Assembly (NCBI RefSeq): GCF_021287135.1
Contig: NZ_JAJTBB010000079.1
Coordinates: 1 to 64,000 of the forward strand
DNA: 64,000 nt
Reading direction: 5' to 3'
Source: Acidovorax sp.
GTDB taxonomy: Bacteria > Pseudomonadota > Gammaproteobacteria > Burkholderiales > Burkholderiaceae_C
The notes beneath the pieces are model-generated. The model was given only the letters and a program-made list of their open reading frames with translations, did no database searches and was not told the origin of the DNA. Position numbers and translations under genes: made by a program. Positions within the stretch are counted from its first letter, which is position 1, and every line of letters starts with the position of its first letter. Positions 4,055-57,463 of the stretch are shown in pieces.

Positions 4055-4067
4055 GCAGAGAACAACC

Positions 4068-5894: not shown

Positions 5895-5908
5895 CCAGGA
5901 ACACGCCC

Positions 5909-6166
5909 ATGCTGAACACCCAACCGAACCTGCAGGCCTGCGACGACTTTTATGAAGCGCTGATCGCGGCGCACCAGGGCCTGTCCACGCCCGAAAGCCA
6001 CGCCATGAACGCGCGGCTGGTACTGCTGCTGGCCAACCACATCGGCGAGCAGGCCACGCTGCAGCACGCGCTGCAACTGGCGCGCGGCGCAGCCGTGCCA
6101 GTGGCAGACCGGCGCACCCACCAGGCCATCACGCCGGTGGTGCCCAGCCACGCCGTAGCGGCCTGA
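5909..6166 (+). CDS. DUF2783 family small protein
   Basis: An 85-residue protein that starts 14 bp after the hydroxylase. The core DDFYEALIAAHQGLS followed by MNARLVLLLANHIG matches the DUF2783 family, whose members are usually found beside flavin aromatic hydroxylases. It has no signal peptide or membrane segment and is probably two or three helices. The function is unknown; a chaperone or accessory role for the hydroxylase is a guess from neighbourhood alone. Confidence 0.75.
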   Translation: MLNTQPNLQACDDFYEALIAAHQGLSTPESHAMNARLVLLLANHIGEQATLQHALQLARGAAVPVADRRTHQAITPVVPSHAVAA

Positions 6167-6262
6167 TCACCGCCTTTTTTCCACCCCAGGCTTCAGCGCC
6201 GCGCAGACGGTGCGGGGCCCGGCTTTGCCCACGCTTTTTTTAACAACACCGGAGACACCACC

Positions 6263-29179: not shown

Positions 29180-29210
29180 GTCTCGGCGTCGTGAATTTTG
29201 CGCAATGCTA

Positions 29211-29225
29211 TTACGCATTGCGTAA
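29211..29225. promoter_or_regulatory. Palindromic operator upstream of the P450 gene
   Basis: TTACGCA-T-TGCGTAA, perfect 7-bp arms, 32 bp before the P450 start. The identical 15-mer is at 30129-30143 in front of the Bug gene. The IclR gene lies between them, which makes it the likely binder. Confidence 0.7.
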
Positions 29226-29266
29226 ATCGACAAACGCCGACCAAAACCTGTCTGCCTTGAGGTGAA

Positions 29267-41217: not shown

Positions 41218-42201
41218 CTACTTCACACCGCCACCACCGCCCTGCAGCCCGCCCAGCACGCGTGCGGTCAGGGCCTGCAGTGAGCCGTCGTTCTGAAATC
41301 CCGCAGCCTCCGCGCGCGGCGTGCTCAGGGCCGGCAGGCGGCCGAACAGCGCTTCAACCCGCGCATCGGGCGCATACCGGATCCATTCGGCGGCATCGGC
41401 ATCCGCCGCACGGGCCATGGCCTGCACCACCGCCTCCACCGAAGAGTGCAAGACCGGGAGCTGCCAGCACCGGGCAGCCGGCAGGCCGTGCGCGGGCAGG
41501 CGCGCCGCGTGCAGCAGGTTGTCCAGACAGCACTCCAGCGACATCCACCACGCCGTGGCCTGCGGCGACACGGTGCAGGTGTACGCCTGCCGCGCATGCA
41601 GCGCATGGAAGATCTGGCTCATGAATGCGGAACCATGGCCCGTCTCCGCCGGAGGCCGCGCCACGACGCCGGGCAGCCGCAGGCTGCGGCCATCGATGTC
41701 ACCGCGCCGGGCGTAGTCGGCCACCAGCAGCTCCGCCATCCATTTGTGCGCCCCATAGCTGAGTGTGGGCTGCGGCCACTGGTCCTCATCGACAGGCTGG
41801 GTTCCGAGCGCGCCGTATACCGCCACGGAGCTGGCAAAGACCAGCCGCGGGACCGGCGCCCGGCCTGCGCGCACCGGGCGCGCCAGCCCCTCGCACAAAG
41901 CCACGGTATCCAGCAAATTCGCCTGCACACCCAGGACAGGCTCGCGCTCGGCCAACGATCCCGGGACACTGGCCAGGTGGAATACGCAGTCGGGCGGATG
42001 GTCTTCCAGCGCTTCGAACAAGGCGCGGTCGGCAAAGCTACCAACGTGCCAGTGCACGCCGGGTGCGCAAGCTGCACGGGGCCCGACGCGATCCACCAGC
42101 GTCAGGCGCAAGGGCGCGCCGGGCACCAGCGGGGCAGACTGCAACCGCTCGGCCAAGGCGGCACCAATGAATCCGCCGGCACCGGTGACGAGCACGTGCA
42201 T
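41218..42201 (-). CDS. NAD-dependent epimerase/dehydratase, DenD-like
   Basis: A 327-residue extended short-chain dehydrogenase, last gene of the 14-gene operon. It has the Rossmann start VLVTGAGGFIGAALAE, the FASSVAVYG strand and the catalytic YGAHK. The overall form resembles D-erythronate dehydrogenase DenD, but the operon suggests an aromatic-pathway intermediate. Its ATG overlaps the stop of the FAH-type gene by one base. Confidence 0.82.
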   Translation of the reverse strand: MHVLVTGAGGFIGAALAERLQSAPLVPGAPLRLTLVDRVGPRAACAPGVHWHVGSFADRALFEALEDHPPDCVFHLASVPGSLAEREPVLGVQANLLDTVALCEGLARPVRAGRAPVPRLVFASSVAVYGALGTQPVDEDQWPQPTLSYGAHKWMAELLVADYARRGDIDGRSLRLPGVVARPPAETGHGSAFMSQIFHALHARQAYTCTVSPQATAWWMSLECCLDNLLHAARLPAHGLPAARCWQLPVLHSSVEAVVQAMARAADADAAEWIRYAPDARVEALFGRLPALSTPRAEAAGFQNDGSLQALTARVLGGLQGGGGGVK

Positions 42202-43196
42202 CAGCGCACCCCCTGCCCTGCAGCCACCACACGCTGGTGCACCACCCCAAAAGGTCCATCACGGCCATCGGGCCAGCGCGCCTGCATGCGCACGGTGTCG
42301 CCGTAGCGCATGAAGGGCGTCTTGGCGGCGCCCTCGTCCAGGATTTCGATCACACGCCGCTCGGCCAGGCAGGCGGAGCCCGCATCGCGCGCCTGGTTGG
42401 ACACCGTGCCCGAACCGATGATGGTGCCCGCCGTGAGCCGCCGTGTGCGGGCGGCGTGGGCCATGAGCTGGCCAAAGCTGAAATTCATTTCGCCGCCATG
42501 GGGGTGGCCAAACCACTGGCCGTTGGAGTCCACATGCAACCGCAGATGCACCCGCCCGCCCTGCCAGGCATCGCCCAGCTCGTCGGGAGTCACCGCCAAG
42601 GGAGCAAAGCTGGTGGAGGGCTTGGCCTGCAGGAACCCGAAGCCGGTCTTCATTTCGTGGGGTCCCAGCGCACGCAGGCTCCAGTCATTGATCTGCACAA
42701 CCAGCCGCACGCAGCCCAACGCGGCCTCGGGCGTGACCCCCATGGGCACCGGGCCGCAGACCACGCCGAACTCGCCTTCGAAGTCGATGCCGTCGGCCTC
42801 GCTGGGCAGCGGCACGTCGTCCTGCGGGCCCAGAAAATCGTCGCTGGCGCCCTGGTACATGACCGGAATGGTGTCGAAGTGCGGGATGGGCGGCGTGTTG
42901 AACGCTCGCTCCATCAAGCGCCCGTGGTTGAGGAAGGCCGATGCATCCAGCCACTGCGGGCTGCGTGGCAACGGCGCGCTGCAGGCGGCGGGGTCGAACG
43001 CGAAGATACCGGTTGCCGTGCCTGCCTCCAGCGCCGCGGCGCGCTCGCGCAGGGCGGGCTCCACCGCGTCCCAGTTCTGCACAGCGGCCAGCAGGCTGGC
43101 CGCTAGGGGAGCGGCATCGACGGCCAGCAAGCCGTTGGAAGAAACCAGCACCAGGCGGCCGTCCAGGCTGCCGTCTTTCAAAGTTGCAAATCGCAT
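42201..43196 (-). CDS. Fumarylacetoacetate-hydrolase family enzyme
   Basis: A 331-residue FAH-fold hydrolase, of the longer two-domain type with an N-terminal SH3-like part (RFATLKDGSLDGRLVLV). The metal-binding region has the FEGEFGVV acidic pair and the later QINDWSLR aspartate, and GSGTVSNQ is the conserved oxyanion area. Such enzymes cleave C-C bonds in acylpyruvates or fumarylacetoacetate-like chains. In the operon it would act late, on a ring-cleavage product. Confidence 0.9.
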   Translation of the reverse strand: MRFATLKDGSLDGRLVLVSSNGLLAVDAAPLAASLLAAVQNWDAVEPALRERAAALEAGTATGIFAFDPAACSAPLPRSPQWLDASAFLNHGRLMERAFNTPPIPHFDTIPVMYQGASDDFLGPQDDVPLPSEADGIDFEGEFGVVCGPVPMGVTPEAALGCVRLVVQINDWSLRALGPHEMKTGFGFLQAKPSTSFAPLAVTPDELGDAWQGGRVHLRLHVDSNGQWFGHPHGGEMNFSFGQLMAHAARTRRLTAGTIIGSGTVSNQARDAGSACLAERRVIEILDEGAAKTPFMRYGDTVRMQARWPDGRDGPFGVVHQRVVAAGQGVR

Positions 43197-43207
43197 CGTC
43201 AGTCCGT

Positions 43208-44197
43208 TCAGGAAGAAGGTGTTTCAAGTCGCAGCCCCGCCGCCCGGATGACGCGGGCGTAGCGGTCTGTCTCTGCCGCCAGAAATGCGCCGAATTCGCG
43301 CGCACTCCGGGTGGGGGCTTCGGCACTGCCCAGCAAGGCCAGCTTCTCGCGCAGCTCGGGCAGGGCCAGGATGCGCACGCATTCGGCATGGAGCCGGCCC
43401 ACCGGGTCAGCAGGCATGGCCGAAGGCGCCAGCAGACCAAACCAGCCGGTGACCTGAAAGCCGGCCAGGCCCGGCGTTTCGGCCACCGTGGGCAGATCTG
43501 CGGGCAAGGCGGGCGAGCGCCGTGCGCCGGTCTGCGCCAGCAGGCGGACACGCCCGTCCTTGACCATCGGGGCCACGGCCAGGGCGCTGTTGAACATCAG
43601 GTTCACCTGCCCGGCCGCCAGATCGTTGAGGGCGGGCGCAGCGCCTTTGTAGGGGACGTGCAGCAGTTGCACCCCGGCCTGCTGCGCCAGCATCTCGCCG
43701 GCCAGGTGCAGCACGTTGCCGATCCCGGCCGATGCGTAGCTGACCTGCCCGGGCTGCCGCCGTGCCAGGGCAATCAGCTCAGCCAAGCTGCGCACTGGCA
43801 GGGCCGCAGGCACCGCAACGACCATCGGCCCGGGGCTGGCCACCAGGGCCACGGGGGCAAAGTCGCGCTGGCTGTCATACGGCAGCCGGGGGTAGAGGCT
43901 GGCATTGATGGCGTGGGCGGCACTGACCCACAGCAGGGAGTGCCCATCGGTGCTGCGGGCCACCGCCTCCGAGGCAATGATGCCGTTGGCCCCGGCGCGC
44001 GACTCCACCACCACGGGGCTGCCCAGGGCCTGGCCCAGCTTGTCGGCCAGCAGGCGGGCCACCAGGTCGGAGCTGCCTCCCGCCGCGAACGGCAGCACGA
44101 TGCGCAGCGGGCGCGTGGGCCAGGGGGCCGCCCAGGTGCTCAGGGGCAGTGCCAAGGCACTCGCCACCAGGGCTCTGCGGTTCAGCATGCGGTGCAT
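43208..44197 (-). CDS. Bug/TctC-family solute-binding protein (receptor 3)
   Basis: A 329-residue periplasmic receptor. The ATG at 44197 has a GGGAG site. Signal peptide (LSTWAAP), then IVLPFAAGGSSDLVAR and VPYKGAAPALND. One of three receptors in the same operon, separated by 4 bp from the SDR gene and 11 bp from the FAH gene. Confidence 0.92.
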   Translation of the reverse strand: MHRMLNRRALVASALALPLSTWAAPWPTRPLRIVLPFAAGGSSDLVARLLADKLGQALGSPVVVESRAGANGIIASEAVARSTDGHSLLWVSAAHAINASLYPRLPYDSQRDFAPVALVASPGPMVVAVPAALPVRSLAELIALARRQPGQVSYASAGIGNVLHLAGEMLAQQAGVQLLHVPYKGAAPALNDLAAGQVNLMFNSALAVAPMVKDGRVRLLAQTGARRSPALPADLPTVAETPGLAGFQVTGWFGLLAPSAMPADPVGRLHAECVRILALPELREKLALLGSAEAPTRSAREFGAFLAAETDRYARVIRAAGLRLETPSS

Positions 44198-44201
44198 GGT
44201 T

Positions 44202-44948
44202 TCAACTCCCGTCGCTGATGGTGGTGCCGCCGTCAACCACCAGGTTGTGTCCTGTCACAAAGGCCCCGGCGGGGCTGGCCAGCATCGCAACCACACCGGC
44301 CACTTCCTCGGGTTCTCCGGCACGCCGCAGTGGCGTGGCCTGGATGCGCCGCGCCATGAATGCGTCGTCGGCCATGAGCCGCTCGGCCAGCGGTGTGCGG
44401 ATCAGGCCGGGCGACACGGCATTGACCCGCACGCCTGCAGGCCCCCATTCCACGGCCAGATTGCGCGCCAACTGGGCGAGCGCAGCCTTGGTCAGCCCGT
44501 ACAGGCCAATCGACCGGTTGCCGCGCAGGCCCGCGATGCTGGCAATGAGCACCGCGCTGCCGCCACCCCGCGCCGCCATGCCGGGCAGCACCAAGGCACA
44601 CAGCCGTGCAGCGGCGCGCAGGTTGATGTCAAACACCTGCTGCCAGTCGGCATCGCTGGCATCGGCCAGCGGGCCGGCCGGCCCCTGGATACCTGCGTTG
44701 CAGACCAGGATGTCCAGCGACCCGGCGCGCTCCACCAGCGCCACGATCTCAGCGGGCACCGCCATGTCGGCAGCGACACCGATGGCGTTGGGCAACGCGG
44801 CCGCCACCTGCTCACAAGCGAGCGAATCGCGGTCGGAGACCACCACCCGGGCGCCCTGGTCCGCCAGGGTGCGCGCAATCGCAAGGCCCAGGCCCTGGGT
44901 GGCGCCAGTGACCAGGGCGGTGCGGCCACGCAGGTCAAAGAGGCTCAT
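44202..44948 (-). CDS. Short-chain dehydrogenase/reductase
   Basis: A 248-residue classical SDR with the cofactor motif TGATQGLG, NAG, the IASIAG serine and the catalytic YGLTK. The aspartate after the second strand (VVSDRD) favours NAD over NADP. It overlaps receptor 4 by 4 bp (ATGA). In an aromatic pathway it may oxidise a dihydrodiol or alcohol intermediate. Confidence 0.93.
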   Translation of the reverse strand: MSLFDLRGRTALVTGATQGLGLAIARTLADQGARVVVSDRDSLACEQVAAALPNAIGVAADMAVPAEIVALVERAGSLDILVCNAGIQGPAGPLADASDADWQQVFDINLRAAARLCALVLPGMAARGGGSAVLIASIAGLRGNRSIGLYGLTKAALAQLARNLAVEWGPAGVRVNAVSPGLIRTPLAERLMADDAFMARRIQATPLRRAGEPEEVAGVVAMLASPAGAFVTGHNLVVDGGTTISDGS

Positions 44949-45916
44949 TCGACCTTGATCCCTGCCTGACGAATGGCCCGGCCCCACCGTTGCGATTCGC
45001 TCTGGATGAACTCGCCGAATGCGGTGGGCGCGAGGGGCGCAGCCTCCAGGCCCAGCGGGCGGTAGCGGCCCAGGACCTCGGGCGACTCCAGTGCCGCCAC
45101 GACGGCCCGGTGCAGCAACTCCACCACAGGGGCCGGCGTGCCCGCGCGCACCATCACACCGTTCCAGCCCGGGATATCCAGGCCTGCGTACCCCGCTTCG
45201 GTCAGCGTGGGCACCTGGGGCAGCACTTGCAGGCGCTGCTCGCTGCCCACGCTGACCAGCGCGCGCAGCTTGCCTTCGCGCACGAACGGCAGGCTCGATG
45301 CCACCACATCGCACATGAAGTCCAGGCGCCCGGCCATCAGGTCCTGCAACGCGGGCGCTGCGCCTTGGTACGGCACATGGGTCATGCGCGAGCGTGTCTG
45401 GATGCGCAACTGCTCAGTCCACACATGGGGCTGGCTGCCCTGCCCGTAAGAGCCGTAGTTGAGCCCGTCGCCTGCAGCGGCCGCCCGCAACAGGTCGGCC
45501 AGCGTCTGAAAGGGACTGCCCGCTGGCACGACCACCACCAGCGGCGACTTGAACAAGCGCGTGAGGGGCGCAAAGTCCTTGAGGGGGCTGAAGCTCAGCT
45601 TGGCGTAGAGCGCCGGGTACATGGCCAGCGGGCCGATGTCTGCGTACAGCAGGGTGTGGCCATCGGCGGGCTGCTGCTTGACGTACTGTGCCGCCAGCTG
45701 CGCCGCACCGCCGGGCTTGTTTTCCACGACCACGGCCTGCTGCATGCGCTCTCCCAGCTTCTGCACCAGCAAGCGCGACATCGCGTCGCCAAAACCCCCG
45801 GCCGGGTAAGGCACCACCCAGCTCAGGGGCCGCGCGGGATACGGAGCCTGCGCCCACGCCCAGGGCGTCAGCGCGGTGGACGCTGCAGCGCCCAGCCATT
45901 GACGGCGCGTGCTCAT
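44945..45916 (-). CDS. Bug/TctC-family solute-binding protein (receptor 4)
   Basis: A 323-residue periplasmic receptor with a twin-arginine-like start (MSTRRQWLGAAAS) and the blocks WVVPYPAGGFGDAMSR, VVVENKPGGAAQ and VPYQGAAPALQD. The RRQWL start could direct Tat export. It overlaps both neighbours by 4 bp, indicating tight co-translation. Confidence 0.92.
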   Translation of the reverse strand: MSTRRQWLGAAASTALTPWAWAQAPYPARPLSWVVPYPAGGFGDAMSRLLVQKLGERMQQAVVVENKPGGAAQLAAQYVKQQPADGHTLLYADIGPLAMYPALYAKLSFSPLKDFAPLTRLFKSPLVVVVPAGSPFQTLADLLRAAAAGDGLNYGSYGQGSQPHVWTEQLRIQTRSRMTHVPYQGAAPALQDLMAGRLDFMCDVVASSLPFVREGKLRALVSVGSEQRLQVLPQVPTLTEAGYAGLDIPGWNGVMVRAGTPAPVVELLHRAVVAALESPEVLGRYRPLGLEAAPLAPTAFGEFIQSESQRWGRAIRQAGIKVE

Positions 45917-46497
45917 GGTTGTTGCTCCTTCGCCGGCGCGGCCACCGACGCATCAAAACGCCCATCCACCAGCACAAACAGCATGCGGCACGGCGCGCCC
46001 GAACGGTTGGCCCACGCGTGGTTGGTGCCGCGCTGCACCACCACGCTGCCCGGGCGCAGTTGCACCTCGCCCTCGTCCAGCACCAGTGTCAGCTCGCCCT
46101 CGATCACTACGCCGTAATCCACCGATTCGGTGCGGTGCATGAGCGGGTGCGGCGAGCTGGCCTTCACCGTGGAGGCCGCAGCGTCACCGATCTGGGTGAA
46201 GGCGTCATGCATGCGTTCAGCGCCGTGGGCCAGAAACTCCGGCGTGTCTGGCGGAATGTCCACAAACCGGAAGCGCGTTCCACCCTGCGAGGGCGGCAGC
46301 ACCAGCGGGCCGAGCGTCGGGTCCGGGCCGTTGTCCACGACCGCAGGCGATTCGGACGTGTTCCACACTTCGTGGAACACCGTGCCGGGGATGGCGGCGA
46401 TCTCGACCACGGTGGGCAGCGGCCCCTCGCTGGCAATCACGGACCGACCTTGCGCGCTGTGGCCGGTGACCACACGATGGATGGTTGGAAAACCCAT
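45913..46497 (-). CDS. Cupin-domain protein
   Basis: A 194-residue protein whose C-terminal half is a single cupin: HRTESVDYGVVIEGELTLVL as motif 1 and PGSVVVQRGTNHAWANRS as motif 2. Motif 1 has one histidine and acidic residues in ligand positions. A GAGGAG site precedes the ATG. It may be an isomerase, a dioxygenase or only a binding protein. It overlaps receptor 4 by 4 bp. Confidence 0.85.
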   Translation of the reverse strand: MGFPTIHRVVTGHSAQGRSVIASEGPLPTVVEIAAIPGTVFHEVWNTSESPAVVDNGPDPTLGPLVLPPSQGGTRFRFVDIPPDTPEFLAHGAERMHDAFTQIGDAAASTVKASSPHPLMHRTESVDYGVVIEGELTLVLDEGEVQLRPGSVVVQRGTNHAWANRSGAPCRMLFVLVDGRFDASVAAPAKEQQP

Positions 46498-46512
46498 GAA
46501 CGGACTCCTCAC

Positions 46513-47310
46513 TCAATCTTCAAAAATGGCGACCGCACGCGTCCAGCCTGCCGAGGCGCCGCGGATCTTGTGGGGGAAGCAGCTGATCGTGAAACCCGTG
46601 GGCGGCAGCGCCTCCAGGTTGTGCAGCTTTTCCAGGTGGCAGTAGCCGATGTCGCGGCCGGCCTTGTGGCCCTCCCAGATCAGGGCTTTGTTGCCGGTCT
46701 CGGCCACGCGCTGGGCGGTGTATGAAAACGGTGCATCCCAGCTCCAGGCGTCGGTGCCGGTCAGGCGCACGCCGCGCTCCAGCAGGTACATGGTGGCCTC
46801 GTAGCCCATGCCGCAACCAGCGCCCAGGTAATCCTTGTGCCCGTAGCGCGAGCCGGCGCGGGTGTTGACCACCACGATGTCGAGCGGCTGCAGCGTGTGG
46901 CCGATGCGGGCGAGCTCGGCCTCCACGTCGGCAGCGGTGGCGACATAGCCATCGGGCAGGTGGCGGAAGTCCAGCTTCACCCCCGGCTGAAAGCACCATT
47001 CCAGCGGCACCTCGTCGATGGTGATGGAGGGGCGGGCGCCGCCGTTCTTGGCGTCCTGCGTGGAGTGGAAATGCCAGGGCGCGTCCAGATGGGTGCCGTT
47101 GTGCGTGGTCAGCGTGACCCACTCGGCCGCCGCGGCTTCGCCGTCGGGGTAATCATCCGGCTGCGTGCCGGGGATCATGGCCATGAACTCGGGCAGCGTG
47201 TCGGCGTGCTTCTGGTAAGTGATCTTGGGCGCCAGGGGTGGCGGGTCGGAGAGGACATCGTTTTCCAGGTAGATGGAAAGGTCCACGAAGCGGCGTTGGG
47301 GTTTGGTCAT
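46513..47310 (-). CDS. Cyclase-family (kynurenine-formamidase-like) hydrolase
   Basis: A 265-residue metal-dependent hydrolase of the cyclase family. The hallmark HNGTHLDAPWHF near residue 70 supplies the metal-binding His and Asp residues, and VVVNTRAGSRYG and the later GTDAWSWD are also typical. Relatives hydrolyse N-formylkynurenine or isatin, or open lactones. In this operon an amide or lactone-ring step is plausible. Confidence 0.88.
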   Translation of the reverse strand: MTKPQRRFVDLSIYLENDVLSDPPPLAPKITYQKHADTLPEFMAMIPGTQPDDYPDGEAAAAEWVTLTTHNGTHLDAPWHFHSTQDAKNGGARPSITIDEVPLEWCFQPGVKLDFRHLPDGYVATAADVEAELARIGHTLQPLDIVVVNTRAGSRYGHKDYLGAGCGMGYEATMYLLERGVRLTGTDAWSWDAPFSYTAQRVAETGNKALIWEGHKAGRDIGYCHLEKLHNLEALPPTGFTISCFPHKIRGASAGWTRAVAIFED

Positions 47311-47326
47311 GGCAGGGGTACAAAGC

Positions 47327-48343
47327 TCACTCGGGCACCACACCCACGGTGCGGGCGAGGGCCTGGTGGATCTGGATTTCGGATTGGTAGAACTTTTCCA
47401 GGGAGTCCAGCGACAGCGGTTCCTGGGGTTCGGTGCCGTTGGCGCGCAGAAAGCTCTGCACCTCGGGGTCGCGCAGGGCCACGCCGAAGGCCTGGTACAG
47501 GCGATGCACCGCCGCATCGGGGGTACTGCGCGCCACCAGCAGCGCGCCCCAGGCGGTGTATTCAAAGCCTTTGAGCGCCGCGGACTGCTGGCTCAAAGGC
47601 GCGACGTGCGGCAGCAGCGAAGGCGCCTTGGCGGCCGTGCTGCCGAAGGCGCGCAGCTTGCCCGTCTCCAGCATGTTCAGCGCTGCACCGCCCAGCGGCA
47701 CAAAGGACAGGTCGATCTGATTGCCCATGAGGTCCTGCACCACGGGCGGTACACCCCGGTACGGCACATGCACCAGCGGCACGCCGCACAGGCGCGCCCA
47801 CTGGGTGCCCATGAGGTGGATCATCGAGCCTTGCCCGATGTGCCCGAAGGTCAGCGGCTTGCTTGCAGCAGCCGCTTGCCGCGCCATGTCCAGCAACTGC
47901 GCGTGGCTGGTTGCTGGCATGTCGGACCGGCCTGCCAGCACGTAGCTGGTGCGCCCCAGCGTGCCGATGGGGCGCATCTGCTCGGGCTTGTACCGGGCGC
48001 TGGCCAGCGACAAAGGGGTAAGGATGGGCTCGGTCTGCGAGACCACCACCACCGTCGCACCATCGGCAGGCGCGTTCAGCATGCGCTGCACACCGATGGA
48101 GCCACCAGCGCCCGGCAGGTTCTCGATGACGATGGTTTGGCCCAGCTCCCGCTGCATCAGCGTCTGGAGCTTGCGCGCAAACACGTCGCTGGGGTTGCCG
48201 GCAGGCTGGGGCACGATGAAGCTGATGTGCCGGCCCGACTGCGCTCGGACCCACGGCGCAGCCATGCCCGCTGCAGCCGCCACCAGGCAGGCGCGACGGC
48301 TGAGCCGGGGCTGCGCCTGCACGAAGGAAGCAAGACGGCTCAT
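47327..48343 (-). CDS. Bug/TctC-family solute-binding protein (receptor 5)
   Basis: A 338-residue periplasmic receptor with a long arginine-rich leader (LSRRACLVAAAAGMAAPWVRAQ), then FIVPQPAGNPSDVFAR, IVIENLPGAGGSIG and VPYRGVPPVVQD. It diverges from the usual PYPAGG and YRGAAPA wording, so its ligand may differ from those of receptors 3 and 4. It overlaps the MFS gene by 4 bp. Confidence 0.92.
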   Translation of the reverse strand: MSRLASFVQAQPRLSRRACLVAAAAGMAAPWVRAQSGRHISFIVPQPAGNPSDVFARKLQTLMQRELGQTIVIENLPGAGGSIGVQRMLNAPADGATVVVVSQTEPILTPLSLASARYKPEQMRPIGTLGRTSYVLAGRSDMPATSHAQLLDMARQAAAASKPLTFGHIGQGSMIHLMGTQWARLCGVPLVHVPYRGVPPVVQDLMGNQIDLSFVPLGGAALNMLETGKLRAFGSTAAKAPSLLPHVAPLSQQSAALKGFEYTAWGALLVARSTPDAAVHRLYQAFGVALRDPEVQSFLRANGTEPQEPLSLDSLEKFYQSEIQIHQALARTVGVVPE

Positions 48344-49497
48344 GCCATGCCCTTCACTGCGGCAACGGTGCCTGGAGCGCGGTGAATGCGCGCAAATGCA
48401 TAGACCGCCACCGCGTCGATCGCCAGGGCGGCGACGCCCAGGCTGCCATAGCCCCAGACCTTGACCAGTGTGCCGCCCAGAATGGGGCCAATGGCCGCGC
48501 CGAACATGAGCATGGCCGGGGTGGCAGCCAGCGCCCGGCCGCTGGGGTCCAGCCGCGCCAGCACACCGAAGGCGAAGGTGTGCGTGAAGATCATCACCGC
48601 GGCAAACACGGCCGCCGCAGCGGCATAAGGCGCGAACACGGGCGAGTTCATGATCACCACCACCAGCAAGGCTTGCAGGGCGGGCCCCGCCAACAGCACG
48701 TTGCGGGCCGCCCAGCGCTTTTCCAGCACGGCGGCCAGCGCCGCAGGGAAGAGGTTGACCACACCCAGCGCGATGAGCACGCCAGTGACGGCCTGCAGCC
48801 CGTAGCCCCGGTCGCTGCCCACGCGCTCCAGAAAGCTGAAGGTCATGGATTGCACCAACCCCAGGGCCGCAATGCCTGCCACGCCCCACCAGACGGCTGC
48901 GGGCAGCGGCGCTGCATGCGCCCGGGAAAGCTCCGCACCGGCGGTGTCAGGTGCGGGAAACGCCACTGCCGCAGCCACCGCGCCCACGGCCATGACACCG
49001 GCAAACACCTGGAACAGCACCGGCCCGCCCTGCTGCGCCACCAGCACCGGTGTGCCGCCGAGGAACACGATGGCAAACACGCCCAGCGCCATGCCCACCA
49101 GGGCGAACATGCGGTGGGGGTTCTGGCTGCGGGCGATGGTGCCGTGCGTCACGCTCAGGGCCGCACCCGCCGCCACCCCGGCAACGGCGTGCAACAACGC
49201 CAGCAACGCGAACTGGTGCGTGGTGGAAGCCGCGGCAAACGCCACGGCGGCGCAAGCAAACCCCACGGTAGCCACGCTGCGCCCGCGCAGCAGCTGGAAG
49301 AACGGCGCCAGCACCAGGCTGGCCGCAACCGCCCCAGCCAGGAACAAGGTGGCCAGCAGGCCCGCCTGCTGCGGGTCGAAGCGGTACACCGAGATCAGCG
49401 TGCCCACCCACACCGGCAACGCGACCAGGTCGACCATGCCCGCGCAGTGGCCCACCATCAGGGCCACGCGGCCCCGCAGCGAATTGGTTGTGATCAT
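48340..49497 (-). CDS. MFS transporter of the catabolic operon
   Basis: A 385-residue, 12-segment major facilitator. The loop after TM2 is weakly conserved, and the protein is short with hardly any soluble parts. Position between the hydroxylase and receptor 5 suggests uptake or efflux of the operon's substrate. Subfamily not determined. Confidence 0.85.
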   Translation of the reverse strand: MITTNSLRGRVALMVGHCAGMVDLVALPVWVGTLISVYRFDPQQAGLLATLFLAGAVAASLVLAPFFQLLRGRSVATVGFACAAVAFAAASTTHQFALLALLHAVAGVAAGAALSVTHGTIARSQNPHRMFALVGMALGVFAIVFLGGTPVLVAQQGGPVLFQVFAGVMAVGAVAAAVAFPAPDTAGAELSRAHAAPLPAAVWWGVAGIAALGLVQSMTFSFLERVGSDRGYGLQAVTGVLIALGVVNLFPAALAAVLEKRWAARNVLLAGPALQALLVVVIMNSPVFAPYAAAAAVFAAVMIFTHTFAFGVLARLDPSGRALAATPAMLMFGAAIGPILGGTLVKVWGYGSLGVAALAIDAVAVYAFARIHRAPGTVAAVKGMA

Positions 49498-49509
49498 GGC
49501 GGCCTCGCT

Positions 49510-50994
49510 TCAGATGGGCTCGGCCAGCGCCACGAGGGACTCTCGCATGATGCGCGAGTGCTCTTCCTTGTCGCCGCCTTCGATCTCGATCTCGCCCAGG
49601 CGCGCCGAGTTCTCCACCACCATGCGGCAGCGCTCCCAGCGGCGGTTTTCAAAGGCCGCCAATGCGGCCGGCACGTCGCCCCCAGCCTGCGCCAGCTCAT
49701 CGGCCAGCACCAGCGCGTCCTCGATGCCGATGCACGCGCCCGATGCCAGGTGGGGCGTGGTGGCATGCACCGTGTCGCCAATCAGCGCCACCCGGCCGCG
49801 GGACCAGGGACGGGGCATGAGCAGCCCTTCCAGCGGGCGGTACACGATCTGGGAGTCGGGGCCGATCTGGCTGCGGATGGCCTGGAGTGTGGGCGCGGCA
49901 AAGCCGTCCAGCAGCGCGCGCAGGGTGTCCACGAACGTTGCGGGATCCACATGGTCGTTGGTGGGGCGCGGCTCGGTGACGAAGAGGTACATCTCGGTCT
50001 TGGAGACCGGGTTCACGCCGGGTTTGATCCGGGGGCCCAGCCACATCGTGGCCGTTTCGATCTCCGGTGGCCGGGGCAGCACGGCGCGCCACACCGCCTG
50101 GCCGCTGTAGCGCGGCCGGGGCGCGTTTTCAAACACGGTCTCGCGCACCTTGGAGTAGAGCCCGTCCGCGCCGATCACCAGGTCATAGCGCTGGCGCTGG
50201 CCGTCGGTGAAAGTCACCTGCACCCCGTCGGCCTCCTGGTCGATGGCCGAGAAGGTGCAGCCCAGGCGCACATGGGCACCCGCCGCGCGGGTGGCCTCGG
50301 CCAGGATGCGGGCCAGCACCGGGCGCAGGATGGCGCCGCCGCCCGGCACATCGCCGCCCGCCAGGCGCGGGGTGGGCAGCGTCGCCACCAGGGGGCCATG
50401 GGGCAGGTGCAGGTTCACGCCGTCCGAGGCGTTGCCTTGCGCCAGAAAGGCTTCCAGAACACCAAGGCGCCGCAGCGCCCGCAGCGTGGCGCCGCCCAGG
50501 CTGATGCCGGCGCCATAGCTGCGCCAGCCGGGATCGATCTCGACGATGTCCACCTGGGCGCCCTGCTTGCGCAGTTCAATGGCCGCGGCCATGCCGGAAA
50601 AGCCGCCGCCGATGACCAGGATGCGGTGGGAAGAAAGGCTCATGGGTTTGTCTCCTTGTTCATTTTTTGGGTTCGCCAGATGGACCTCGCCATCGGCTTG
50701 CAGGACCAGCGGCACGGGGGTGAGCGCATCGCCCAGGCACGGCCCCAGGGTGCACACCCCGGTGGCGATGTCGAACAGCGCGCCATGGGCCGCGCAGACG
50801 ATGCGGTCACCGGCCGCGTTCAAGTACCGGTCCTTGCGCCATGCCATCGGAACGCCATGGTGAGGACAGGCGTTGGCATAGGCATGCAACCGCGGGCCCT
50901 GCCGCACGACGATGACCGTGTCCTGGCCGTGGCCTGCGGGGTCAAAGCCCCGCGATTCGCCGTCGGGCAGGTCGCTCCAGTGGCAGAGCTTCAT
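49510..50994 (-). CDS. Rieske ferredoxin and FAD hydroxylase in one open frame
   Basis: One 494-residue frame. Residues 1-110 are a Rieske-type 2Fe-2S domain with ligands C43, H45, C67 and H70 (CPHHG, CAAHG). Residues 118-494 are a complete flavoprotein hydroxylase of the salicylate/PHBH type, with GGGFSGMAAA, GADGLYSKVR and LIGDTVHATTP. The second part begins with its own ATG at 50643, preceded by a perfect AAGGAG site, as if it were a separate gene. The two are joined only because an A6 tract lacks one A (see the junction entry). The products may be a fusion, two proteins or both. The likely role is ring hydroxylation, the first step of the operon's pathway. Confidence 0.85.
   Translation of the reverse strand: MKLCHWSDLPDGESRGFDPAGHGQDTVIVVRQGPRLHAYANACPHHGVPMAWRKDRYLNAAGDRIVCAAHGALFDIATGVCTLGPCLGDALTPVPLVLQADGEVHLANPKNEQGDKPMSLSSHRILVIGGGFSGMAAAIELRKQGAQVDIVEIDPGWRSYGAGISLGGATLRALRRLGVLEAFLAQGNASDGVNLHLPHGPLVATLPTPRLAGGDVPGGGAILRPVLARILAEATRAAGAHVRLGCTFSAIDQEADGVQVTFTDGQRQRYDLVIGADGLYSKVRETVFENAPRPRYSGQAVWRAVLPRPPEIETATMWLGPRIKPGVNPVSKTEMYLFVTEPRPTNDHVDPATFVDTLRALLDGFAAPTLQAIRSQIGPDSQIVYRPLEGLLMPRPWSRGRVALIGDTVHATTPHLASGACIGIEDALVLADELAQAGGDVPAALAAFENRRWERCRMVVENSARLGEIEIEGGDKEEHSRIMRESLVALAEPI
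50641..50668 (-). promoter_or_regulatory. Internal ribosome site and A6 slippery tract at the Rieske/FAD junction
   Basis: Reading the minus strand: CCC, six A, TGAAC, then AAGGAGACAAACCC and ATG. In the open frame this is Pro-Lys-Asn-Glu-Gln-Gly-Asp-Lys-Pro-Met. With seven A, or after a -1 slip on the tract, the frame ends at once in TGA after Pro-Lys-Lys. The ribosome site would then serve a separate hydroxylase gene. Confidence 0.7.
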
Positions 50995-51003
50995 GGTGCG
51001 CGT

Positions 51004-51945
51004 TCAACGGGGTGCCTGCGTGGGGGCGGGGCCGGAGGGCGCCCACTTCTCGCGATGCTGGAACAGGAACAGCTGAGAGGCATCGGCGCTCATCGGGACC
51101 TCGCGCGGTGCCCAGTTGTCGTCGTGAAGGTCCATGTCCGCGTCGTATTCGACGTGGCAGCCCAGGGGCGAGTTGAAGTACCAGAACCAGTTGCTGCCGA
51201 ACTTGTGCCGCCCCGGTCCCCAGAAGCTCTGGTAGCCCTTTTCCGCGAAGCGGGTGCCGGCCAGCAGCACGTCGGTGGGGCCGCCCATGTGGAAGGTGAA
51301 ATGCTCGCAGCCTTTCATGAACGGGGGCGTCTGGATCATGAACAGCGTGTGGTGGTCTTGCGTGCCCGCAGGGCGCAGGAAGGGGCCGACACCGGTGAAA
51401 CGGTCTGTGCAGACAAAACCCAGGCGGGCGTAAAACGCCTCGGCCTTGGCCGTGTCCGGCACGAAGTACACGACATGCGACAGCGAGCGGGGGCGCGCCA
51501 GCATGTCGGGTGACAGGCCCAGCGCGTTGGGCGCCCGCTGCGGCGCGGCCCCAGGGGCGTTGACGGGCTCCGCAGGCAACGAAAGCGGCTTGCGCACGGT
51601 GACCTGGAACGCGAGGGCAAAGCCCAGGTCGTCCGTGGTGCGCAGCACGCCGCCCTGGCGCACCACCGCGCGGTCGCGGGCCAGTTCGGCCTCGATGGCG
51701 TCGAGCGTGGCCGTGTCGGCCACGCCGTACACGGTCTCGCGCAGCAGGCTGGCCGTGCCCAGCGGGGGCGGCAGCGCCGGATCGTCCTGGGCGCGGATCT
51801 CCACGGCCGTGCCGTCCAGGGCTTCGAAGCGCCCGCCTTGTGCCGTCACCCCGACCGGGGTCAGCCCGTAGTCCGTCAGGTACTGCGCGCAGGCGGCGAT
51901 GTCGTCCACGCCAAAAACCAGCGCGTCGGGTCCAATGATGTTCAT
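51004..51945 (-). CDS. VOC-fold extradiol dioxygenase
   Basis: A 313-residue two-domain vicinal-oxygen-chelate protein of the type I extradiol dioxygenase group. Candidate Fe(II) ligands are His in LSHVVYFV, His in CEHFTFHMGG and Glu in CHVEYDAD, the usual His-His-Glu order of the C-terminal domain. It would cleave a catechol next to the hydroxyls. The next gene in the order of transcription is the hydroxylase that could make that catechol. AAAGGAC precedes the ATG. Confidence 0.86.
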   Translation of the reverse strand: MNIIGPDALVFGVDDIAACAQYLTDYGLTPVGVTAQGGRFEALDGTAVEIRAQDDPALPPPLGTASLLRETVYGVADTATLDAIEAELARDRAVVRQGGVLRTTDDLGFALAFQVTVRKPLSLPAEPVNAPGAAPQRAPNALGLSPDMLARPRSLSHVVYFVPDTAKAEAFYARLGFVCTDRFTGVGPFLRPAGTQDHHTLFMIQTPPFMKGCEHFTFHMGGPTDVLLAGTRFAEKGYQSFWGPGRHKFGSNWFWYFNSPLGCHVEYDADMDLHDDNWAPREVPMSADASQLFLFQHREKWAPSGPAPTQAPR

Positions 51946-51991
51946 CTCTTGTCCTTTGTGTTGTCGGTGGTGCGGTTGGGCTTCCAGCGCT

Positions 51992-53155
51992 TCAGGCGGT
52001 GTGTCCGCCCAGGACTTCTGCCACCCAGTCTGCGATGTAGTGGCCCGCATTGATGCTGTTGTCGAAGCTCGCGTGCTGCGAGCCGCCTTCGCGGTCGGTG
52101 AATACCTTGAGTTCGCGGCGCGGGCTGTTGACCAACTGCTCGTAGGTGCGGTGCGCCCACTTGAGCGGGATCTGCGAATCGTGCTCGCCATGCGTCACCA
52201 GGAACGGCACACGGATCTTCTCGACCACGCCATCCAGGTGCACGTTCTGGGCGATCCGCATGAAGTCGTCGATGTCCTTGGCGCCCCACACCCAGCACAC
52301 ATGGGCCCAGTAGTGCGGCACCGGAAAGTCACCCTCTTTCTGCAACCGGCGTTCCTGCACGTCGCGCCAGTCGTGGTTCGCGCCCCAGGCCACGCCGCAG
52401 GCAAAGCGCGGCTCCATCGCCACGCTGCGCGGGCAGTAGTAGCCGCCCAGGGACACACCTTCGCAGCCGATGCGCTTCGGGTCCACGGCGGGGTGTTGCT
52501 CCAGCCAGTCCACCACACGGCTGGCCCAGTGTTCGGTGTCGTACCGCGCCGTGAGCCCCTGCAGGCGCAGCGCCTCGCCGGTGCCCGGCTGGTCCACCAC
52601 CAGGGAGGACACGCCGCGCTGGGCGAGCCACACAGGCAAGCCGACCAGGTGCTTCATTTCCTTGGTGGAGTCCAGGCCGTTGAGCTGCACCAGAATCGGC
52701 GCCCGCTCGCCCGGCTGGAGCCCTTTGGCGGGGTAGTACAGGGCGGACAGGTGGGTGCCCTCGTACGGAATTTCCACGCGTTCTACCGGATCGCCCAGCA
52801 GGGCCGAGCCTTTGAGGAACAGCTCCAGTTCACGGCGGTAGATCGCCAGGCGTCCCGGGGCGTTGTGCGCCTGCAGCCGCTCGGCCGTGATCAGGTAGCC
52901 CGAAGCGCGCCGGTATTTCTCACCCGCCGAAAGCATGCGCCCCCGGGCTTCGTCTTCTTCGGCCAGCCCGCAGAGCTTGTCGGCCATGCGCACCCAGGTG
53001 TCGCGAAAGGCCTGCGTGCCGGCAGCATCCGGGGCCTTGGCGGCCTCTTGCAGGGGGGCGCACATCTCCTCGATTTCGCCGATGCGCGCGCCCATTTCAA
53101 TGGCGAGATCGACGGACAGGTTCCAAACGTAGTTGGTGGGGAAATACTTGAACAT
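51992..53155 (-). CDS. Alpha/beta hydrolase with helical N-terminal domain (DHPON-hydrolase/FrsA-like)
   Basis: A 387-residue hydrolase. Residues ~1-125 are helical and 130-387 are the alpha/beta fold. The nucleophile elbow is EGVSLGG with S235, the oxyanion area is QLNGLDSTKEM, and a GEHDSQIP aspartate and late SQHASFD histidine could complete the triad. This two-part form is seen in 2,6-dihydroxypseudooxynicotine hydrolase and relatives, which cut C-C bonds. Placed beside an extradiol dioxygenase, it is a good candidate for hydrolysis of the meta-cleavage product. Confidence 0.85.
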   Translation of the reverse strand: MFKYFPTNYVWNLSVDLAIEMGARIGEIEEMCAPLQEAAKAPDAAGTQAFRDTWVRMADKLCGLAEEDEARGRMLSAGEKYRRASGYLITAERLQAHNAPGRLAIYRRELELFLKGSALLGDPVERVEIPYEGTHLSALYYPAKGLQPGERAPILVQLNGLDSTKEMKHLVGLPVWLAQRGVSSLVVDQPGTGEALRLQGLTARYDTEHWASRVVDWLEQHPAVDPKRIGCEGVSLGGYYCPRSVAMEPRFACGVAWGANHDWRDVQERRLQKEGDFPVPHYWAHVCWVWGAKDIDDFMRIAQNVHLDGVVEKIRVPFLVTHGEHDSQIPLKWAHRTYEQLVNSPRRELKVFTDREGGSQHASFDNSINAGHYIADWVAEVLGGHTA

Positions 53156-53166
53156 CTCATTCAAAC

Positions 53167-53655
53167 TCAGGGTTGGGAACTGCGGGGGCGCGGCGTGATG
53201 CCGATGCTGGCGAAGAAGCGGGCCGTGGCAGCGTCCGTGAAATCCGGCACAAAGCGGAAGGCGCGGATCCGGCCCCCTTCGATGCGCAGCACATCGCTGC
53301 CGACGATGCGCTCCACGCCTGCCTTGTCGTACAGCGGGCTGCGCACCTCCAGCCGGGCGGACAACTCGCTGGCGCCCGCCTCGACCGAAAGCACCGTGAG
53401 CCGGGCGCGCGGCTGCACCACGGTCTGGTCGATGTAGAACGCCAGGCACGCCGCGTTGTCCATTTGCGCGGTGCAGGCCGGATAGTCCGACCGCTCGACA
53501 TCCGGGGCGATCAACGCGCGCACGGCCGCCATGTCGGCCGCGTGCACGGCCTGCACGTAGCGCTCGAACACCGCCTGTGGCTCGGCGGGCGTGGCCGCAT
53601 GGGCCAACGCGCAGGCGGCAAGCAGCGGGGACGCAATCAGGGATTTCTTGGTCAT
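53167..53655 (-). CDS. Secreted NTF2-like (SnoaL-type) protein
   Basis: A 162-residue protein with a signal peptide ending ALAHA and one NTF2-like domain (PQAVFERYVQAVHAADMAAVRALIAPD, then FRFVPDFTDAATARFFAS). Two cysteines in ACTAQMDNAAC may form a disulfide. Export is unusual for a catalytic SnoaL fold, so a binding role in the periplasm is likely. It is the second gene of the operon. Confidence 0.78.
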   Translation of the reverse strand: MTKKSLIASPLLAACALAHAATPAEPQAVFERYVQAVHAADMAAVRALIAPDVERSDYPACTAQMDNAACLAFYIDQTVVQPRARLTVLSVEAGASELSARLEVRSPLYDKAGVERIVGSDVLRIEGGRIRAFRFVPDFTDAATARFFASIGITPRPRSSQP

Positions 53656-53680
53656 GGTGTGCCGTGCGGAATGTGCGAAG

Positions 53681-54592
53681 TCAGTGCTTGATCCAAAGCG
53701 GAATGGCGATCCCGATGCCCAGGATGTTGTTCTTGGTGGTGTTGGCCGCATACACGCCGCGCTGGTAGTTCAGGCTCACGCTGAAGGGGCCGGCGTTGTA
53801 GTTGAGCGAGGGCCCCAGGGCAAAGCTGCGGGCGCGGTTACCCTGCAGGGTGGCGCCGCCCTGCCGGTCGTCGGTGAACTGGTTGAGGTAGGAGCCCACC
53901 ATGCCGAACTTCCACGGGCCGGCGTTCCAGCCGGCCGTGAATTCGCCCGCATAGCCATTGCCCGAGCGGTAGTGGGTGGTGCTGTTTTCACGGTTCACCA
54001 TCAGACGGTTGATGAAGCCGACATCCAGTCCGCTCGGATCGTTGTGGCGGAACGCAAGTACCGGCTGGATGGAGGTGTAGCCGGTGGAGACGCTGGGCCG
54101 GTGCGGGTCGTAAGAGCCGTTGGGCAATGCGATATCCAGGCCCGCCACGGCATAGGCGCTGTCCGTCAGGCTCCAGCGCAGCACGGCGGGCGTGACGGTG
54201 AGGTTGGCCACCCCGTTGTGCCGTTCGCTGTGGCCGGCAACGTCGGTGCGCAATGAGACGGCCGGAATCACCAGCTGCGAATACAGGCGAGCGCCCAGCA
54301 CCGTCGTGTCGTAGGCCGCCAGCAGCCGCGTGGTGGCCGAGGTCGCGCTCATCTTGAACGGGATGGGGCGCTTGTCGCCGTGGTTGTCATAGAGACCGCT
54401 GGACGACGTGTGGTGCACCTGCTCCAGCAAAAACAACCCGGGAATGGGGGGCAAACCGGCCACGTATTCCCCGGTGGAACCGACCGGGAAGGGCGACACG
54501 CCCCCTTCGAAAGCCTGGGCACCGGAGGCGCCCAGCAGGCTCAGCAACATGCAGCCCGCAGCCTGCGCGGCGCGGGAAAATTCCGTCTTCAT
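53681..54592 (-). CDS. Outer-membrane channel, phenol-degradation MetA-pathway type
   Basis: A 303-residue protein with a signal peptide ending GAQAFEGG, followed by about twelve amphipathic beta strands and ending in IPLWIKH. This is the form of the 'MetA-pathway of phenol degradation' family (PF13557), which is found in aromatic-compound gene clusters and probably lets hydrophobic substrates through the outer membrane. It is the first gene of the operon, after a strong AAGGAG site. The divergent LysR gene is 258 bp away. Confidence 0.86.
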   Translation of the reverse strand: MKTEFSRAAQAAGCMLLSLLGASGAQAFEGGVSPFPVGSTGEYVAGLPPIPGLFLLEQVHHTSSSGLYDNHGDKRPIPFKMSATSATTRLLAAYDTTVLGARLYSQLVIPAVSLRTDVAGHSERHNGVANLTVTPAVLRWSLTDSAYAVAGLDIALPNGSYDPHRPSVSTGYTSIQPVLAFRHNDPSGLDVGFINRLMVNRENSTTHYRSGNGYAGEFTAGWNAGPWKFGMVGSYLNQFTDDRQGGATLQGNRARSFALGPSLNYNAGPFSVSLNYQRGVYAANTTKNNILGIGIAIPLWIKH

Positions 54593-54713: not shown

Positions 54714-54756
54714 TTAAGATCGGCCTTAACTTAGATCAAATGGATTGATTCCATTT
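54714..54756. promoter_or_regulatory. Candidate LysR operator pair in the divergent promoter
   Basis: Two perfect inverted repeats in an AT-rich stretch: TTAAG-ATCGGC-CTTAA at 54714-54729 and AAATGGA-TTGAT-TCCATTT at 54738-54756. GATC-flanked half sites continue to 54781. LysR regulators usually use a recognition and an activation site of this spacing. Assignment is by position and symmetry. Confidence 0.5.
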
Positions 54757-54850
54757 GCAGTATTGATCCCATGAATAGATCAAGGGCTCCGCAGCCGCCT
54801 GCCGTACTTGGCGGGGCGCTCAGTAAGAAGCCTTCACCGATGCCCCGCCC

Positions 54851-55762
54851 ATGCGCTTCAACAAACTGGACCTGAACCTGCTCGTGGCACTGGACGCCCT
54901 GCTCACCGAGCGCAGCATCAGCCGCGCCGGAGAGCGCCTGCATCTGAGCCAGCCGGCCACCAGCAACGCGCTGGCGCGTTTGCGCACCTATTTCGACGAT
55001 GAACTGCTGGTGCAGCAAGGCCGTACCATGGTGCTGACACCGCGTGCCGAGGGGCTGGTGGACCCCGTGCGCGAGGTCCTGATGCGCATCGACAGCACCA
55101 TTGCCGAGAAGCCCAGGTTCGACCCCGGCACCTCCACCCGCAGCTTCATCCTGCTGGTGTCCGATTTCACGACCACGGTGCTCATGCAACCGCTGATCGA
55201 GCAGCTGTTCCAGGAAGCGCCCGGGGTGCAGCTGCACCTGCGCGCCCAGAACAATCGGCCTGTGGAGCAACTGGAGGAATACGGGGCCGACATCCTCATC
55301 ATTCCCGAGCAGTACGCCTCGCCCCGGCACCCGAGCGTCACGCTGTTCGAGGAAACCTACCTGTGCGTTACCTGGGAAGGCAACCCCCATGTCACCAACG
55401 CCCTGGGCTTTGACGACTACCTGGCCGCCGGCCATGTGGTGGCCGACTATTCGGGCGCGCGGCACATTCCGGCGTTCGACGGCTGGTTTCTGGAACGCTT
55501 CGGAGTGAAGCGGCGCATCGAGATCTCGGCGCCCACCATGGCCGCCCTGCCCAGCCTGGTCGTTGGCACCCACCGTGTGGCCACGGTGCACAAACGCATC
55601 GCCCTGCGCGCCGTTCAGCTGGGTCTGCCCGTGCGCATCTGGGAGCCGCCCCTGGAGATTCCGCCCATGCGCCAGAAGCTGCAATGGCACCGGCATCGCG
55701 ACAAAGACCCGGGGCTGGAGTGGCTGCGCGAGCGGGCCATGGCCGTGGCAACGCGCATCTAG
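54851..55762 (+). CDS. LysR-family regulator of the catabolic operon (NodD-like)
   Basis: A 303-residue regulator. The start MRFNKLDLNLLVALDALLTE with LSQPATSNALARLRTYF is the NodD/NahR-type helix-turn-helix. The rest is an effector-binding domain (SFILLVSDFTTTVLMQPL). It is divergent from the outer-membrane channel gene and has palindromes in between, so it almost surely controls the 14-gene operon, with a pathway compound as inducer. Confidence 0.9.
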   Translation: MRFNKLDLNLLVALDALLTERSISRAGERLHLSQPATSNALARLRTYFDDELLVQQGRTMVLTPRAEGLVDPVREVLMRIDSTIAEKPRFDPGTSTRSFILLVSDFTTTVLMQPLIEQLFQEAPGVQLHLRAQNNRPVEQLEEYGADILIIPEQYASPRHPSVTLFEETYLCVTWEGNPHVTNALGFDDYLAAGHVVADYSGARHIPAFDGWFLERFGVKRRIEISAPTMAALPSLVVGTHRVATVHKRIALRAVQLGLPVRIWEPPLEIPPMRQKLQWHRHRDKDPGLEWLRERAMAVATRI

Positions 55763-56787: not shown

Positions 56788-57303
56788 TCACACCGCCAGC
56801 GGCAGCTCAGTGGTGGACAACACATTGCGCAGCACCATGAACGACCGCACCTGCCGCACCCCCGGCAGGTAGAGCAGCTGCTCGGCGTGCAGCCGGTTGA
56901 AGCTGTCGTTGTCGCGCGTGCGCACCAGCATGAAGTAGTCGAACTCGCCGGTGACCACATGGCACTCCATGCAGCCGGAGACCTTGGCCGCCGCCTTTTC
57001 GAACTCGGCAAACGACTCGGGCGTGGAGCGGTCCAGCACCACGCCAATCATCACCAGCATGCCCGCGCCCACGGCGCGTGGGCTCAGCAGCGCCACCACC
57101 TTGTCGATCAGCCCCAGCCGCTTGAGGCGCTCCACCCGGCGCAGGCAGGCGGGGGGGCTCAGGTGCACCTTGGCGGCCAGCGCTACGTTCGACAGCGACG
57201 CGTCGCGCTGCAGCTGGCGCAGGATGGCCCGGTCGGTGCGGTCCAGCTCGGCAGACAGGTCCACCGGCGGCACATTCTGCTGACGAACTTTTGTTGTGCT
57301 CAT
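56788..57303 (-). CDS. acdR: Lrp/AsnC-family regulator AcdR
   Basis: A 171-residue regulator with an N-terminal helix-turn-helix ([23 protein letters not shown]) and a C-terminal RAM ligand domain ([16 protein letters not shown]). It is divergent from acdS, the normal place of AcdR, which activates ACC deaminase under low oxygen or in the presence of substrate. The palindrome at 57303-57317 touches its start codon and suggests autoregulation. Confidence 0.9.
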
Positions 57304-57317
57304 TTCAATAATTGAAA
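57303..57317. promoter_or_regulatory. Palindrome at the acdR start
   Basis: TTTCAA-TAA-TTGAAA, perfect 6-bp arms, in an AT-rich acdR-acdS divergent region of 160 bp. A likely AcdR (Lrp-type) site. Confidence 0.5.
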
Positions 57318-57463
57318 AATTCAGTGAGGCAATATTCTCTTTCACAACACTGAAAAGCCAAAAATTCACCCAACTTTGCAACCACCTGACGCACCCGTTT
57401 TCCTACGATGAAGGCATGGCAGACGCCCCGTCTGCGCTCCGTCACCGCTTGAGGAAAACCGCC

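Follow-up and report, generated by a model that had tools for sequence, protein, structure and literature searches.

The gene cluster

In a 64,000-nucleotide stretch of Acidovorax sp. DNA (positions 1 to 64,000 of contig NZ_JAJTBB010000079.1, assembly GCF_021287135.1; hereafter the window), 14 open reading frames (ORFs) lie on the minus strand between positions 41,218 and 54,592. They are headed by the gene of an outer-membrane channel and faced, 258 bp away, by a divergent LysR gene, as a first-pass annotation made from the sequence alone had described, and Pfam backs the family name of every ORF (Table 1). With the start codons chosen in this analysis, the spacings from the operon head onwards are 25, 11, 46, 9, 12, −4, 16, 0, −4, −4, 4, 11 and −1 bp, which agrees with the earlier range (gaps of 4–46 bp or overlaps of 1–4 bp) at all junctions except the one where the gap is 0 bp.

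All ten core genes of the fde (flavonoid degradation) operon, which has 10 ORFs (PMC9422121), are present at 45–94% identity. In the plant-associated bacterium Herbaspirillum seropedicae this operon serves to degrade flavonoids such as naringenin. They stand in the order of the Herbaspirillum-genus locus L092, from genome G055, which we took as H. seropedicae and which was the comparison sequence in place of strain SmR1 itself. L012 and L022, two loci from named Herbaspirillum, have the same core order, and the locus of A. delafieldii DSM 64 agrees with the window in gene order. The cluster is thus very probably the fde operon of Acidovorax sp., orthologous to Herbaspirillum fdeR-fdeABCDEFGHIJ and serving flavonoid degradation; this confidence applies to the assignment as fde and to a role in flavonoid use, with the late steps of the pathway excluded.

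The first-pass annotation had proposed that a coherent hydroxylate–cleave–hydrolyse operon, faced by a divergent LysR gene, acts on an aromatic compound, and this matches the fde logic. It had also inferred an undescribed pathway, a view that has to be given up: the order of the ten-gene core is that of a characterized pathway, and what the window adds is accessory genes on a known operon type. Five genes are inserted relative to fdeA–J, encoding a SnoaL-like protein, three Bug receptors and a short-chain dehydrogenase (SDR). FdeA is described as similar to a phenol-degradation protein, and the flavin adenine dinucleotide (FAD) mono-oxygenase FdeE and the Rieske carrier FdeD are described as acting together (PMC8552027); the letters FdeB, FdeF, FdeG, FdeH, FdeI and FdeJ were assigned by position only. 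We found no title or abstract that describes this cluster in Acidovorax, a weak negative that covers open-licence literature only.

Table 1. Features of the predicted fde operon and its regulatory region (window coordinates; percentages are identities to the Herbaspirillum-genus locus L092)
Feature	Coordinates	Strand	Support
LysR-type regulator, FdeR counterpart	54851–55762	+	Pfam HTH_1 and LysR_substrate; 49% to the divergent LysR of L092
Candidate operator region, two ATC-N9-GAT motifs (54766–54780 and 54735–54749)	54735–54780	−	Motif scan, intergenic alignment
Outer-membrane channel, FdeA counterpart	53681–54592	−	Pfam PF13557 (Phenol_MetA_deg); 61%
SnoaL-like protein, extra to fdeA–J, signal-peptide-like start (by eye)	53167–53655	−	Pfam PF12680 (SnoaL_2)
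C–C bond alpha/beta hydrolase, FdeB counterpart	51992–53155	−	Peptidase_S9/S15 models; 81%
Extradiol (VOC fold) dioxygenase, FdeC counterpart	51004–51945	−	Glyoxalase fold; 81%
Rieske [2Fe-2S] carrier, FdeD counterpart	50644–50994	−	Pfam PF00355; 54%; junction comparison
Predicted FAD-dependent flavonoid 8-hydroxylase, FdeE counterpart	49510–50643	−	Pfam PF01494 (FAD_binding_3); 76% over 377 residues; tree
MFS carrier, FdeF counterpart	48340–49497	−	Pfam PF07690 (MFS_1); 69%
Bug/TctC solute receptor 1, extra	47327–48343	−	Pfam PF03401; no match in L092
Metal-dependent 'cyclase' (kynurenine formamidase/isatin hydrolase family), FdeG counterpart	46513–47310	−	Pfam PF04199; 94%
Cupin, FdeH counterpart, ifcD-like role proposed	45913–46512	−	Pfam PF07883 (Cupin_2); 75%
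Bug/TctC receptor 2, extra	44945–45916	−	Pfam PF03401
SDR, extra	44202–44948	−	Pfam PF13561
Bug/TctC receptor 3, extra	43208–44197	−	Pfam PF03401
Fumarylacetoacetate-type hydrolase (FAH), FdeI counterpart	42201–43196	−	Pfam PF01557 and PF18288; 74%
NAD-dependent epimerase/dehydrogenase-like protein, FdeJ counterpart	41218–42201	−	Pfam PF01370; 45%

The regulatory region

FdeR is reportedly NodD-like, a term used in the title of a paper. The two palindromes noticed earlier correspond to two ATC-N9-GAT motifs in the 258-bp gap that separates the LysR gene from the channel gene, a pattern that we take to be of the NodD type (nod-box-like), and at least two such motifs occurred in none of 2,000 single-base shuffles of the window region. 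In an alignment of 14 intergenic regions, an operator core, CAATCCATTTGATC, is exact in 12, eight of them from Herbaspirillum or Curvibacter and others from A. delafieldii and the window; L014 has one mismatch, at the final base, and L096 lacks the core. The full ATC-N9-GAT motif occurs in five of the 14 regions, twice each in the window, L013, L014 (where the copies overlap) and L098, and once in L009.

Between the LysR and channel genes there are 16 T-N11-A sites in the window (11.2 expected from shuffles), and palindromic T-N11-A sites are not above chance (one found, 0.19 expected, a count that 17.6% of 1,000 shuffles reach). A scan for sigma-70-like promoters gave no site, with 1.3 expected, and terminator-like sites show no excess over shuffles (six on both strands, 7.9 expected).

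The Rieske–hydroxylase junction

In this assembly the Rieske carrier and the hydroxylase form a single open frame of 494 codons, and the first-pass annotation accordingly read them as one Rieske/FAD hydroxylase. Both domains are indeed in one ORF, but in all 31 other loci compared the Rieske frame is closed by a stop codon at or before the FAD start, often with an overlap of the two genes. The join depends on a run of six A's at the junction, one fewer than the seven of A. delafieldii, and the FAD gene retains its own AAGGAG and ATG. A true fusion that evolved into a self-contained hydroxylase, as the uninterrupted frame might suggest, is therefore unlikely; the joined frame probably reflects either a single base changed recently or an error in sequencing, the latter being possible because the source genome is a draft (4.79 Mb in 91 contigs). 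Because the ORF corresponds to two genes in the 31 other loci, a count of 15 genes, with the regulator in addition, fits the cluster better.

Alternative substrates and related operons

The window cluster thus resembles the fde operon of H. seropedicae SmR1, as judged against the Herbaspirillum-genus locus, in its ten-gene order, divergent LysR gene and operator core, and differs in the five insertions, the Rieske/FAD frame joined in this assembly and the greater divergence of two proteins. Several points weigh against a simple equation of the two. The FdeR and FdeJ counterparts are only 49% and 45% identical to those of L092, so the inducer and the late substrates may differ. No full ATC-N9-GAT motif occurs in the other nine of the 14 regions (Herbaspirillum, Curvibacter and L096), so that only the core block can be common to the window and those regions. 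The 14 T-N11-A sites of L092 match the printed count, one of the grounds for taking it as H. seropedicae, but L094, of the same genus, also has 14. FdeE is said to need no specific reductase and accepts flavanones, flavones, isoflavones and flavonols (PMC11303751).

This breadth of FdeE, together with the recurrence of the extra genes in other fde-type loci, would suit the same enzymes acting on another polyphenol class, such as a flavonol, dihydroflavonol, chromone or xanthone, to which the five extra proteins (SDR, SnoaL-like protein and Bug receptors) would be adapted. We regard this as rather improbable, as the core and the operator are orthologous to those of the naringenin operon and nothing identifies another substrate.

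A second possibility is an isoflavone cluster of the ifc type, as in Variovorax sp. V35, where a hotspot spans locus 59270 to 59590 and the first enzyme, IfcA, is an isoflavone-specific 8-hydroxylase. That system shares 8-hydroxylation, A-ring dioxygenation, a DHPON-hydrolase-like protein and cupin chemistry with the window, its logic being the same (FAD hydroxylase, glyoxalase-fold dioxygenase, DHPON-hydrolase-like protein, cupins), and soybean-root strains that degrade daidzein, an Acidovorax among them, tend to have conserved ifc genes (PMC11069340). IfcA is, however, 36.3% identical to FdeE in print (IfcA was compared through the printed figure), whereas the window hydroxylase shares 76% identity over 377 residues with the Herbaspirillum enzyme and its placement in the tree likewise marks it as probably FdeE-type; moreover, there are two redundant cupins, IfcD1 and IfcD2, in ifc and one cupin among the 14 window ORFs. 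With a hydroxylase this close to FdeE, an ifc-type cluster is very unlikely and we rejected it.

Classical meta-cleavage operons (bph, dmp, mhp and hpa) use an extradiol dioxygenase followed by a C–C hydrolase, and the window cluster is like them in having both. The hydratase, aldolase and acylating aldehyde dehydrogenase of the lower pathway, which the first-pass annotation had listed as missing, are absent from the Pfam results for the 14 ORFs, the rest of the genome not having been searched. A classical meta-pathway whose lower genes lie in another part of the genome was set aside: these three enzymes are not needed if, as proposed below, the C4 fragment leaves as oxaloacetate (genes elsewhere were not sought).

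Active sites and distant relatives

When aligned to BphC (1han), the dioxygenase conserves both His ligands, the Glu ligand and a further His; presumably the first three bind iron and the last is catalytic. The nearest solved chain to the C–C hydrolase is 2jbw, 2,6-dihydroxy-pseudo-oxynicotine hydrolase, to which Ser, Asp and His align. Isatin hydrolase A is the nearest solved relative of the cyclase, and 3lzk, an FAH family protein, that of the FdeI counterpart. For the FdeJ counterpart the best NCBIfam model, D-erythronate dehydrogenase, scores under its cut-off. The cyclase contains HxGTHxD and the Rieske protein CxH/CxxH, which we take to be the respective family motifs.

These relatives include what might recommend the earlier suggestion of an undescribed pathway for a nitrogen- or lactone-containing aromatic, in that the C–C hydrolase is nearest to a nicotine-pathway enzyme, the cyclase to isatin hydrolase, and 6-hydroxynicotinate 3-monooxygenase is among the solved structures related to the hydroxylase. 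All are distant family resemblances, and the operon fits fde gene for gene, which makes that pathway extremely unlikely; the N-heterocycle route was rejected as nicotinate- and nicotine-type enzymes appear solely as distant solved relatives. The lactone half of the suggestion survives in one respect, as the printed intermediate of the naringenin route is a delta-lactone (PMC10755750).

A proposed degradation route

In H. seropedicae, hydroxylation by FdeE (Hsero_1007, the first hydroxylase) and ring cleavage by the dioxygenase FdeC (Hsero_1005) are reported and the release of oxaloacetate is putative; the other fde enzymes are called experimentally unverified in this one secondary source (PMC10755750). 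Taking naringenin, which is 5,7-dihydroxylated, as the substrate, we derived the following scheme for the fde operon of the window. FdeR would sense flavonoids and activate the operon, and the compound would enter through the channel and the MFS carrier, perhaps with the help of the Bug receptors. FdeE, alone or together with the Rieske protein FdeD, would hydroxylate C8 of the A ring to a 7,8-catechol, which FdeC would cleave between C8 and C8a, so that C8 becomes a carboxylate and C8a the carbonyl of a lactone; cleavage is placed there because the nuclear magnetic resonance structure of the isoflavone intermediate X3 retains oxygen on the former C8a (PMC11069340). FdeB would then hydrolyse the C4a–C5 bond, so that C5–C8 leave as oxaloacetate and an aryl-oxovalero-delta-lactone remains. 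The lactone would be opened and decarboxylated by FdeG, FdeH or both, the former C2 alcohol oxidized to a beta-diketone by FdeJ or the SDR, and the beta-diketone split by FdeI in the manner of fumarylacetoacetase to 4-hydroxybenzoate, which would feed pobA and the protocatechuate 4,5-cleavage genes.

The derived cleavage scheme agrees with the printed naringenin route. We infer the placing of FdeB at the oxaloacetate step and of FdeG, FdeH, FdeI, FdeJ and the SDR at later ones. The ifc mutant does not support the assignment of FdeB, because disruption of the DHPON-hydrolase-like gene left daidzein degradation unaffected (PMC11069340). At the lower end, pobA has two matches over cut-off in the genome and ligA has one; among 14 control genomes, matches over cut-off occurred in one and none, respectively. 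A search of the genome for protocatechuate 3,4-dioxygenase beta gave no match.

More tentatively, as one possibility for the late steps, the opened lactone could be oxidized by FdeJ or the SDR to 4-hydroxybenzoylacetoacetate, a close analogue of fumarylacetoacetate, or to the decarboxylated diketone, and FdeI could yield 4-hydroxybenzoate plus acetoacetate (or acetone). This would complete the route without the classical lower meta-pathway. It is at odds with the printed scheme, in which the former C2 is hydroxylated, not oxidized, before ring opening and the end product is 4-(4-hydroxyphenyl)-3-buten-2-one (PMC10755750); if the 4-hydroxybenzoylacetoacetate route were true, the printed butenone would be a dehydration side product.

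Distribution and phylogeny

Of the 399 family genomes sampled, 35 have a close relative of the C–C hydrolase (E of 1e-100 or better); the count includes the source genome and extends over 23 of 141 genera. We compared the 34 other family loci, using one stretch of 13–21 kb each and leaving extra copies in G146, G244 and G402 out of the count; a match had to cover at least half of the protein, and absences may reflect stretch ends. Among these loci the dioxygenase was found in 29, the FAD hydroxylase in 29, the Rieske protein in 28, the cyclase in 29, FAH in 30 and the epimerase-like protein in 24, followed by LysR (26), the cupin (22), MFS (21) and the channel (1). Of the accessory genes, SDR was found in 12 (nine at 50% identity or more), SnoaL in 4, Bug1 in 5, Bug2 in 5 and Bug3 in 7. 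Hydrolase, dioxygenase, Rieske protein, FAD hydroxylase, cyclase and FAH are complete in 21 of the 34, and 13 have the cupin, epimerase-like protein and MFS carrier as well. The cyclase (FdeG) is unusually conserved, at 85–99% in the 29 family loci that carry one; in gammaproteobacterial loci it is only 62–71% identical, and conservation there is higher for the C–C hydrolase.

Some loci differ in layout, so the full fdeA–J order is not universal. L097, L115 and L127 have FAH, cyclase, epimerase-like protein, Bug2, SDR and a C–C hydrolase of 73–78% identity, with no FdeE or FdeC within the stretch fetched, and in Variovorax ginsengisoli such a hydroxylase-less cluster lies near an fde operon that ends after the MFS gene. 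Hydrogenophaga pseudoflava has a DUF1302–DUF1329–BNR–MMPL module between the LysR and C–C hydrolase genes (L016:1402-7861), at the place of the FdeA channel.

A tree of the hydroxylase was built from the 67 of 73 loci with a full-length open gene (65 rows including the window, identical rows removed). The nearest named relative of the window enzyme is that of Acidovorax delafieldii (95% identity). The window hydroxylase is nested with the Herbaspirillum enzymes. These fall inside Comamonadaceae diversity, which suggests transfer between the two groups, although the fork that links their group to the Acidovorax clade has weak support (85/70). Separately, L018 comes from a record titled Pantoea sp. 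18069, but its fde hydroxylase sits within Comamonadaceae, grouped with that of Acidovorax sp. CCYZU-2555; transfer, contamination and a misnamed record are candidate explanations.

Accessory genes and neighbourhood

The SDR gene adjoins a cupin, FAH, epimerase-like or C–C hydrolase gene in L106, L111, L112, L115, L127 and L131, and is probably part of the pathway because it neighbours fde-type genes in several loci. Bug2 is also next to the SDR in L097, L099, L106, L115 and L127. Bug3 is reduced to fragments in A. kalamii (L010) and the SDR match in A. delafieldii is spread over two frames, so that Bug3 and the SDR may be dispensable. A SnoaL-like gene recurs just upstream of the C–C hydrolase gene in Variovorax, Hydrogenophaga, Curvibacter and Roseateles.

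Adjoining the LysR gene, at 56788–58480, are genes for an Lrp/AsnC regulator and 1-aminocyclopropane-1-carboxylate (ACC) deaminase (TIGR01274, 652 bits against a cut-off of 392). Of the 31 compared loci, only A. delafieldii L009 has this neighbourhood, and none of the 34 family loci does; ACC deaminase is another trait of plant-associated bacteria, here beside the operon. Elsewhere in the window, the minus strand encodes at 26837–29233 a 798-residue cytochrome P450 that also contains a reductase-like part and a ferredoxin domain of the 2Fe-2S kind, presumably of the self-sufficient CYP116B type. A second small aromatic-type cluster at 2143–7231 comprises an FAD_binding_3/Rng_hyd_C hydroxylase, a metallo-beta-lactamase-fold protein, a Bug receptor and a regulator-like ORF judged by eye.

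Implications

An operon that had been listed as of unassigned pathway very probably belongs to a characterized one, and the comparison shows the reach of that pathway in the host family. For the steps of the route whose enzymes are reported as experimentally unverified, the cluster, with its recurrent SDR and highly conserved cyclase, offers specific candidates.

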